The notes below the pieces were generated by a model that did no database searches, was not told the DNA's origin, and saw nothing but the letters and a program-made list of their open reading frames with translations. From positions 1 through 42,687 of the forward strand of contig CANJQC010000036.1 of NCBI GenBank assembly GCA_947476295.1: DNA of 42,687 nt. The letters are read 5' to 3'. Origin of the DNA: Planctomycetaceae bacterium (lineage in GTDB: Bacteria > Planctomycetota > Planctomycetia > Planctomycetales > Planctomycetaceae). Shown piece after piece: positions 3,167 through 30,024 of this stretch. Made by a program: the position numbers and the translations under genes. How positions within the stretch are numbered: position 1 is the stretch's first letter; the number at the start of each line of letters is the position of its first letter.

Positions 3167-4291
3167 TCACTTCTCTGATCGCGGTTTTTCCTGACTGCGT
3201 TCGTTGAGCAGTCGAAACTGGCTGCCTCCATTTACCTGCTCCCTGCGGGCGGCTCGCCACTGGACGACGATGTCCGGCTGATCCGCAAAGATGCCGTCAA
3301 CACCGGCTGCGACGGTCAGCCATTCCAGATATTCGGCCGCAGAGCCTGCAAAGTCCGGCAACGCATCTGTGCGGAACGTCCAGACATGCACCTGTAATGC
3401 ATTGGCGTGCGCGTTCCGGACAAGCTCGGTAAGTTGCGGGGTGCCGTCTTCTTGTTTGCCCGTTACGACATGATCAAGCGGCACACCGATGCCATCAGCG
3501 ACCTCGGCAATCGATTTCAACTTCGCAGGATCAGCGGGTTTTACGAGTAACTGGATGATTAACAACGACGTCTTCAGTTCTTTTCGCAGACGCCGCACTT
3601 CACCTTCGTCAAAGCTCTGCAGATAGATGCGATCGTCGGAAGAGTCGTAGCCGTACTGCGTCAGAACATCCAGAATAGCCTGTGACAGATCAAGTCCTTC
3701 GGCTCTATGTTCAGCGGCACCTTTAAATTCTACATACACACCAGCCTGGTGCGGACGTGACTTGTTGAGTCCCTGAATCAACTGCAGATGTTCGGCCAGC
3801 GTGGAAATGCGGAAACCACCGGATTCCAGCGGAAACCGAGTGCCTTTGTCTTTCCACGGACGCGATGGAGAACGGCGTTCGGTGACCCTGAGTGTCTTCA
3901 ACTCATCCAGTGTGAAGTCAAATGAGTACCAGTGTCCATCTGCACGATTGCGATCAGGAAACACGAATGCAGCATTGGTCACGTCATCCAGAATCAGATC
4001 ATGCAGCACAACCGGAATACCGTCCTTACTGAGGACTACGTCCTGTTCGATGTAGTCGGCGAGCATCGCATGAGCCAGCACGGCGGATTCGGTCGTGTGT
4101 TCCGGCAGATACCCCGACGCACCGCGATGCGCGATCACGATGGGGACATTCTGTGCCTGATCGGCGGTCACTATCGCCGCTGGCGGTGCATCATCGTTGA
4201 TCTGTGCCATAGCTGAGACAGCAATCTTCGTGACAGGAAGGAAACAAACACCTAACACCAGCCACCTTGTATAACCGTACGCTGGACGCAA
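3167..4291 (-). CDS. Exported glycerophosphodiester phosphodiesterase
   Basis: Hydrolyses glycerophosphodiesters to glycerol 3-phosphate and an alcohol, outside the cytoplasm. The GDPD fold is clear: the catalytic HRGASGYLPEHT motif, EQDVVLSKDGIPVVLHD with the metal-binding Glu/Asp and second His, a YVEFKG metal ligand segment, and the closing VDGIFADQPDIV. This is the periplasmic GlpQ-type rather than the cytosolic UgpQ-type. A hydrophobic signal (RWLVLGVCFLPVTKIAVSAMA) precedes the domain. I place the start at the TTG at 4291, because AGGAG lies seven bases before it. The open frame reaches 4342 with another TTG but no such site. The length (374 residues) is normal for exported GlpQ-type enzymes. 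Confidence 0.9.
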   Translation of the reverse strand: MRPAYGYTRWLVLGVCFLPVTKIAVSAMAQINDDAPPAAIVTADQAQNVPIVIAHRGASGYLPEHTTESAVLAHAMLADYIEQDVVLSKDGIPVVLHDLILDDVTNAAFVFPDRNRADGHWYSFDFTLDELKTLRVTERRSPSRPWKDKGTRFPLESGGFRISTLAEHLQLIQGLNKSRPHQAGVYVEFKGAAEHRAEGLDLSQAILDVLTQYGYDSSDDRIYLQSFDEGEVRRLRKELKTSLLIIQLLVKPADPAKLKSIAEVADGIGVPLDHVVTGKQEDGTPQLTELVRNAHANALQVHVWTFRTDALPDFAGSAAEYLEWLTVAAGVDGIFADQPDIVVQWRAARREQVNGGSQFRLLNERSQEKPRSEK

Positions 4292-21819: not shown

Positions 21820-22594
21820 TTACTCGATAATCGCGATTGACCAATCAATCTGCTCGAACAATCGGGTCAGTTTCGCGAGACGAGATGCGTTCGACTGTGC
21901 AATGTACTGGATTTGCAATCGCCGGTGATGTCGGTGCACCTTGAGGAAAATGCGGCCGGCAGTAGAGTTGCTGAGCCTGCCGTCTCTGACGCCAATCGTC
22001 AATATGCGGAAACGACGCAAAGACATCGGAGGGTACGTGATTGCAGCTCAACGATGTCAGGATCTCTGCAACATCTTCCGCATAACCAAGATGCATCAGG
22101 ATTCGCACCAATCGCGCCGGAGCGATTGACGGGAAGAAATTTTCAAGGTCCATTTTTAATACTACCGCTTTACCAACATGTGGCGCAGCGTGGCTGCTCG
22201 CGGATCGGTGCCTGCGAAATCCATGAGCAGCCTCATGCACGGGAATCTGATTCAGGATCTCGTACAAAATTTTCCGCTGGAGATCACAGAGTCGATACTT
22301 GGGTGCTTCAATCAGTCGGCACTTGCCGTGCCGCTTCAATTTCCAGTGATAGCGATAGTGCCGCAACGGACCGTCTGGTAAAGCTCGTTCCAGTTGTCGT
22401 CGGTCTGCGAACCAAAGTAAATCGTTTTCATCCAGCCCAAGCCATTCACGGATTTCTCCCACGGACCGCAACTGCAGTACGCCGACGTTCTCGAACAACC
22501 CAGGTGATGGCAGAAAATCTGCCGACTGATCGTAGGTCTGTATTCGAAAATCGTCCATTTCGGAAGCATTCGACAGACTGCGACTGTGCAGCAA
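21820..22594 (-). pseudogene. Reverse transcriptase remnant with internal deletion removing the YxDD motif
   Basis: Retron/group II-like reverse transcriptase. The first frame (22594 down to 21845) holds RT domains up to motif 4: WFADRRQLERALPDGPLRHY, RLIEAPKYRLCDLQRKILYEIL, HEAAHGFRRHRS, LKMDLENFFPSI with the first catalytic Asp, and HFPQGAPTSPAIAN at residues about 215-228. After PAIAN the frame turns to non-RT sequence and stops. From about 21918 to 21820 a different frame reads QIQYIAQSNASRLAKLTRLF and EQIDWS, which matches the normal extreme C-terminus of this RT class (Ile-Ala-x-x-Asn...Leu-x-x-Leu-Phe-x-x-Ile-x-Trp). About 130-150 residues including YADD are missing, and the frame is shifted at the join near 21911. 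It therefore cannot be an active polymerase. The start is unclear (TTG 22594 or ATG 22558; the frame is open further upstream to about 22715). Confidence 0.82.
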
Positions 22595-22663
22595 GAAGAT
22601 GACCAGTTCGCGCTGTCGTGGTCGCTGATCGCCAAACCGTTTGGATACAGCGAAACCGGATTT

Positions 22664-22703
22664 GCGTGAGGAATTGTACGTGGAGCGTACTACCTCCTCA
22701 CGC
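22664..22703 (-). other. Long hairpin just upstream of the RT remnant
   Basis: The outer stem is a perfect nine-base pair arm (GCGTGAGGA at 22664-22672 with TCCTCACGC at 22695-22703). After small unpaired bases an inner stem follows (GTACG at 22676-22680 with CGTAC at 22686-22690), with a five-base loop. No thymidine run follows on either strand, so it is not an ordinary terminator. It could be part of an RNA linked to the reverse transcriptase, or a repeat relic. Confidence 0.55.
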
Positions 22704-22938
22704 GACGCAGTGCCATAGAGAAGTCATTCCCCCGGGGATACCCCGGAGAGACGAAGCCGTTGTCAGAAACAACGATTCGCCAGCCTGAAATCTTCGGACG
22801 CACCGAGCACTGTCAGTAGAACATGTCGTGCAGGAATTGCAAGTTCTAGGACAATTGAACCGATCCGGCGATCCGGGGACGGATGTGGCGTCAGCCGACC
22901 GTCAAAACTGCGATATGTAGAAAGTGATGCGGAACGCA

Positions 22939-22980
22939 CGAATCACATTGTACCGGCAAGCTGACGCATGCCGCTCGCCG
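22939..22980 (+). repeat. Dispersed intergenic repeat, family C, copy 1
   Basis: A 42-base segment whose last 33 bases (from TTGTACCGGCAAGCTGACGC onward) are identical to 29992-30024; the first nine are similar. It ends two bases before the stop codon of the minus-strand DUF1501 gene. GGCA...TGCC arms can pair within it. Confidence 0.8.
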
Positions 22981-22982
22981 AG

Positions 22983-29982: not shown

Positions 29983-30024
29983 CGAATTGCCTTGTACCGG
30001 CAAGCTGACGCATGCCGCTCGCCG
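29983..30024 (+). repeat. Dispersed intergenic repeat, family C, copy 2
   Basis: The last 33 bases match 22948-22980 exactly and the preceding nine are similar. It sits between the stop of the alcohol dehydrogenase gene and the stop of the minus-strand DinB-like gene, 13 bases from the latter. Both copies thus lie at the 3' ends of minus-strand genes and in the same orientation. Confidence 0.8.

Follow-up and report, generated by a model that had tools for sequence, protein, structure and literature searches.

The reverse transcriptase locus

A retron consists of a bacterial reverse transcriptase (RT) gene with its own template RNA. We analysed a stretch of 42,687 nucleotides (hereafter the window), which corresponds to positions 1 to 42,687 of contig CANJQC010000036.1 in assembly GCA_947476295.1 (Planctomycetaceae bacterium). 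Its minus strand carries a DUF1501 gene (Pfam PF07394; 22983..24407) followed by remnants of a retron-type non-coding RNA and of an RT gene. The RT sequence is distributed over two overlapping frames of this strand. Frame 1 (ORF 22594..21845, 249 aa) reads as an RT as far as QGAPTSPAIAN and as non-RT sequence thereafter. In a profile search of both frames, by which the original prediction of an RT gene could be checked, frame 1 matched positions 3-131 of the 205 of Pfam RVT_1 (E 7.5e-10) and the PADLOC models RT_other (E 2.5e-70) and RT_outgroup (E 7.4e-67), both PADLOC matches stopping at residue 232. Frame 2 (22026..21820, 68 aa) gave no match in Pfam and a weak one to the C-terminal part of RT_other (positions 440-472 of 481, E 0.0059), and the match of the window RT to this profile is split into two pieces.

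A protein search of 99 genomes, including the window's own, returned one close relative (G013:C330; 82% over 228 residues). It is located on a 5332-base contig (JAGQQS010000555.1) of Planctomycetaceae HKST-UBA72, referred to below as L036. The L036 RT is intact (441 aa, with a YADD motif), matches frame 2 of the window (69% over 32 aa, E 5.4e-7, window 21838-21933) and lies downstream of the same DUF1501 gene as the window retron, while the downstream neighbour of the RT differs (L036 has a DUF4058 gene there and the window has purA). Gene order is shared on one side only, and both deletions described below are read against this single close relative, which is itself on a draft contig.

The surviving RT frame (21911..22642, minus strand; blastn 78% to L036) comprises 244 stop-free codons corresponding to L036 residues 49-292, and contains what remains of the N-terminal domain, region X and the motifs up to QGAPTSPAIAN. 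At its downstream end, a first deletion (deletion A; junction at 21910..21912, minus strand) has removed the equivalent of L036 positions 3713-4083 and shifted the frame (blastn). This amounts to 371 nt, or 123 codons plus 2 nt, and takes about 124 residues (approximately residues 293-416), YADD included; the exact base of the junction is ambiguous, as the two blastn segments share 2 bases. The catalytic YxDD, thus missing from the window RT, is kept in all 25 rows of an RT alignment (A5; YVDD in L037), in which deletion A removes 23 of the 47 invariant columns (hand count). Beyond the junction, the RT C-terminal remnant (21820..21911, minus strand) continues in the shifted frame (QYIAQSN...RLFEQIDWS) up to a stop that comes a few residues later than in L036. 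Open reading frames, profiles and blastn to L036 therefore bear out the original prediction as regards the RT frame running to QGAPTSPAIAN, the join near 21911 and the frame shift. The second frame had also rightly been taken for an RT C-terminus, given its matches to RT_other and L036, but this part begins at about 21910 rather than at about 21918, and the loss is of about 124 residues instead of 130-150.

A second deletion, which had escaped the original prediction, is found at the other end of the surviving frame (deletion B; junction at 22642..22644, minus strand). L036 positions 2757-2980 (224 nt) are absent here, with window base 22643 unaligned. With deletion B, most of the a2 arm of the RNA is lost together with the spacer and RT codons 1-48, and the RNA is joined, 3' of its msd hairpin, straight to RT codon 49. 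The first ATG, GTG or TTG in the surviving frame is a TTG at 22594, which matches L036 residue 65 and which, judging by this alignment, is not the native RT start. Inactivation by a single small deletion had been proposed for this gene: the loss of YxDD with a frameshift stands, but there are two deletions, and the RT start and an RNA arm have been lost as well. On this comparison, the enzyme and its template RNA are both broken in the window.

A conserved RNA upstream of the RT gene

The 204 bases upstream of the RT (window 22644-22847) are 84% identical to L036 (blastn). In intact relatives, an RNA of about 160-180 nt lies just upstream of the RT, and the window retains a remnant of it from the a1 arm to the break (22644..22808, minus strand). 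Within this remnant, a conserved core (22647..22750, minus strand) is made up of a GGGGUAUCCCC hairpin and a long msd-like hairpin, GCGTGAGG...CCTCACGC (22664..22703, minus strand). The core scores 79.5 bits (E 2.0e-13) against a model of the RNA, R1, which was built from 16 of the 17 relatives examined (one Uliginosibacterium) with the window left out. For the model, inverted repeats were listed in all 17 loci and the closing stem of each was selected visually; L015, in which this gave no stem, was dropped, leaving 16. Folding compared with shuffles gave z values of -3.8 for window 22595-22982, where hairpins outside the RNA are counted too, and of -3.6 for L036, whose fold has a 15-bp closing stem round the hairpins, as in retron RNA.

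In the window's genome, R1 finds this locus alone at E<=1. Of the 297 genomes of the class, 83 have a match at E<=0.01, among them that of the window and 10 from which model sequences were taken, and at E<=1e-6 there are 61 places in 60 genomes (hand count). RT homology is present downstream of the R1 match in all 29 best-scoring other loci (L039-L067), eight of which had first been found via their RT. In L058 (G177), the RNA does not adjoin the RT, which starts about 1.3 kb downstream, possibly with an insertion between them, and in L030 two near-copies of the RNA region, seen as double matches, seemingly stand in tandem upstream of one RT.

In 22 R1 matches outside the model set, 99.6% of cells are paired and the covariation score is 0.369, versus 0.130 for shuffled and at most 0.118 for slid partners. 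One of five covariation measures, further pair types, is not above shuffles (467 of 500 as high), and the pair counts of the alignment used (A6) lean towards the R1 structure, as it was fitted to R1. Rfam 15 yielded no match for the RNA in the window and at six relatives' loci, the two tRNAs it matched in L018 being unrelated to the RNA. Retron RNAs of planctomycetes are not described in the literature searched by titles and abstract openings, among the matches listed.

The arms of the closing stem, a1 and a2, fall outside R1, and the stem was scored locus by locus against shuffles that preserved base content alone, not dinucleotides. None of 500 shuffles is as good as the L036 stem. At most 2 of 200 are as good in 25 of 28 other loci (17 of 20 among non-model loci), the weak stems being those of L048, L052 and L058 (21, 10 and 5 shuffles of 200 as good, respectively). 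In the window, the a1 arm (the 5' arm; 22794..22808, minus strand) aligns to a1 of L036 while its partner is gone, and the best stem is no better than base shuffles (258 of 500 as good): the window is without a closing stem because a2 was lost in deletion B. In cross-pairings of each a1 with the a2 regions of the other 30 loci in the set, at most two partners did as well as the locus's own a2 in 26 of the 30 intact loci (exceptions: L045, 6; L048, 8; L052, 4; L058, 8), so that the arms are largely lineage-specific; for the window, 21 of 30 a2 regions pair as well or better. RNAalifold did not recover the a1/a2 stem from a 13-sequence full-length alignment (without L012, L022, and L035), probably because the arms are out of register in it.

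The myxobacterial retrons Mx162, Sa163, and Mx65 have their branch G within CAGC or GAGC, according to PMC6868368. By comparison, 22 of the 30 intact loci have an AGC within 5 bases upstream and 14 bases downstream of the end of a1 (a count without chance control), whereas L036, L055, and L062 have CAGGC in its place. Branch-G priming and msDNA synthesis are taken here from established retron biochemistry. By this scheme, the a1/a2 stem would close the RNA of intact relatives, whose 5' hairpins would be bound by the RT; the enzyme would prime from a branch G near a1 and copy the 3' hairpin into short RNA-linked DNA. Deletion A or deletion B alone should stop msDNA synthesis, and neither a working enzyme nor a closed template would be able to exist in the window.

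Origin of the two lesions

We consider it very probable that the window locus is a wrecked retron whose RT belongs to the N-terminally extended 'outgroup/other' class, with recent loss being suggested. The 244 surviving codons, free of stops, give dS 1.09, dN 0.111, and dN/dS 0.10 relative to L036, the ratio being rough as dS is near saturation, and the RT differences by codon position are 32/17/109. The dN/dS of DUF1501 between the window and L036 is 0.035. Nonsynonymous differences from L055 amount to 83.3 for the window and 84.2 for L036, and those from L062 are slightly more numerous for the window (123.7 vs 118.0). With an open frame and a low dN/dS, recent loss after long constraint is the simplest reading, and the surviving sequence thus suggests that decay of the retron is recent.

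An assembly artefact, whereby the retron would be intact in the organism and two stretches would have been dropped or strain variants merged, appears improbable. The assembly is a draft of 252 contigs, so that an assembly error might account for either join or for both; moreover, both lesions affect one gene, and an intact allele is present in the genus. Among the 44 rows tested, which represent 36 different loci because 8 are repeats, an RT stop or frameshift was also found in three other loci, namely an in-frame stop in L008 and a frameshift in L043 and L057, each known from a single assembly, and some of these lesions may themselves be assembly errors (the stop reported in L019 is at the C-terminal end of the RT). 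Against an artefact, the overlap relative to L036 is at most 2 bases at junction A and nil at junction B, the assembly has a completeness of 98.97% and a contamination of 0.85%, and nothing closely similar to the missing RT segment occurs in the rest of the genome. A search with the deleted C-terminal segment listed the remnant itself, a diverged RT on contig C83 (33%) and three weak matches (E 0.05-0.6), and we rejected the possibility that this piece is located at another place in the genome.

These searches do not favour the original suggestion that intact copies exist elsewhere in the same genome: R1 points to this locus alone, the deleted segment is without close match, and the search for an intact paralogue found no second copy of this retron, the intact copy being in another genome of the genus. 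The C83 RT, 33-40% identical to the parts compared, is the only other RT above the Pfam cut-off in the window's genome. It resembles the L036-type retron RT in its YADD and open frame, but its best PADLOC match is RT_XIII (517.8 bits, vs 345.1 for RT_other), its N-terminus differs from the L036 type, and the R1 match upstream of it is weak (E 0.012). Ahead of the first ATG of this type XIII-like RT (L001, G000:C83, 421-2343) lies a large hairpin. Of two RT fragments close to contig ends, L003 (G000:C108) and L004 (G000:C217), one looks by eye like a piece of a group II-type RT and the other like part of a different RT, and both were rejected as the missing part.

Still less probable is a functional truncated module, in which the shortened RT and RNA would have been kept, for example to bind RNA or to compete with intact retrons. 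The 244 open codons, the dN/dS of 0.10 and the near-equal numbers of nonsynonymous differences from L055 would be expected of such a module, but these values also fit recent loss. Furthermore, the native start is gone, leaving the TTG at the residue-65 place as first in-frame start, and so is the a2 arm. In addition, two draft genomes, G001 and G012, have DUF1501 copies closer to that of the window (91% and 88% nucleotide identity, respectively) than the copy of G013 (83%), and show no match to the window-type RT at E<=1e-5. Thus, absence of the window-type retron is not rare in the genus.

The vicinity of DUF1501 also contains repeats. A 28-base sequence present at window 22948-22975 and 29992-30019 (minus strand) has 72 copies in the genome at <=3 mismatches (none for a reversed control). 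Near 22890-22980, between DUF1501 and the retron, it joins an inverted-repeat hairpin that is REP/REPIN-like. In G012, two 32-base copies of this repeat (L089, 5793-5824 and 6525-6556) are located 732 bases apart downstream of DUF1501. As these paired repeats occur in a genome without a window-type RT match, the site downstream of DUF1501 may be a spot of insertion or exchange.

If the window locus is a wrecked retron, as we favour, it is a natural lesion in which RNA and RT are broken together, in a genus still holding an intact copy. A retron as such is a known kind of element, of which the window copy is a decayed member. As a lesion this pseudogene is ordinary, and the conserved RNA-RT pair is of more interest.

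Class of the reverse transcriptase

The intact L036 RT matches PADLOC RT_outgroup and RT_other (PDLC03740 and PDLC02949) over almost its whole length, N-terminal extension included (RT_other, E 4.4e-138, positions 67-471 of 481; RT_outgroup, E 3.4e-131, positions 4-407 of 407), whereas the window copy, with residues 1-48 and about 293-416 missing, is predicted to be inactive. No second Pfam domain was detected in the L036 RT at E<=0.01. Among NCBIfam models, it scores 185.5 bits with that of retron St85 (cut-off 235) and 55.1 bits with a group II model, and it is below the cut-off of all those matched.

By sequence and by structure (AlphaFold2 model with a mean pLDDT of 89.8), the nearest solved chains and folds of the L036 RT are retron RTs, Ec86 first. 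The Ec86 (Eco1) RT (PDB 7v9x) is the best fold match (TM 0.60 by query and 0.82 by target, with 24% identity in the fold alignment) and is among the best sequence matches, but its chain has 314 residues, vs 441 in L036. According to the title of entry 7v9x, Ec86 works with an effector, while no conserved effector-like neighbour was seen in the 22 neighbourhoods surveyed for L036 and its relatives. An extended RT N-terminus, common to the L036 class, is described for Mxa1 (Mx162), Mxa2 (Mx65), Sau1 (Sa163), and Nex2 (Ne144) in PMC6868368. As for region X, H203 is invariant in the 25 RT rows of A5 and NAxxH is present in 7 of 25 (by eye). At the Asn position, also read by eye, 7 rows have Asn, 3 have His (the L036 group) and the rest have mostly Phe. 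Mx65 and Ec48 are likewise without the region X Asn, according to PMC6868368.

That the locus is no retron but a piece of a group II intron or of an RT from another class is extremely improbable: Pfam RVT_1 by itself cannot separate RT classes, region X is atypical and L036 lies under every matched NCBIfam cut-off, but L036 scores higher with the retron than with the group II model, PADLOC retron models span its whole RT, and the upstream RNA covaries and has a closing stem. Neither the window nor the surroundings of L036 produced an Rfam match, hence none to a known RNA of group II introns.

Neighbourhoods and distribution of intact relatives

We searched for an effector in 22 neighbourhoods (20 fetched, plus L036 and L090; frames of at least 90 aa in stretches of about 5-6 kb), and no family but the RT was found in a fixed place. 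The RT was recovered there in 20 of the 22, frame picking having dropped it in L106 and L107 (at these loci, it is shown under L056 and L060). The next families, the first of which includes DUF1501, occur at scattered offsets in 6 and 5 of the 22 neighbourhoods, respectively. The N-terminal domain of the RT of intact relatives may itself be the effector.

Related RTs are also encoded in 38 plasmid records, with at least 80% of the RT covered in three, all from Burkholderia; in the two of these that were opened, the protein is annotated as 'reverse transcriptase family protein' or is unannotated. R1 matches immediately precede the RT in B. pyrrocinia (E 7.4e-10), B. cenocepacia (E 7.2e-9), and Tsukamurella (E 2.2e-5), and each of these RNAs has a closing stem (scored without shuffles).

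A possible, though rather doubtful, reading is that these intact retrons make up a widespread two-component family, present in planctomycetes, Burkholderia, Uliginosibacterium, and Tsukamurella, in which an RT with an N-terminal helical domain and an RNA of about 160-180 nt would yield a short hairpin msDNA with no separate effector. The N-terminal domain would then be the effector, or the role of the family would be other than phage defence, and the window would represent a lineage losing the retron. Set against its intact relatives, the window copy reveals a template RNA with covarying helices. This RNA is the mark of a wide range of retrons in which no effector gene was recognised, and R1 offers a direct route to finding and expressing them.

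A second subgroup of planctomycete RTs is associated with an RNA of the same plan but with a different stem, in 10 of the 13 loci looked at; the closing stem of this subgroup was sought in L021, L029, and L034 and none was found. In the other loci (L018, L023-L028, L030, L032, and L033), the RT N-terminus is often of the MGLF form, and four of these ten loci carry TCGCACAAGC at the 5' arm of their closing stem.
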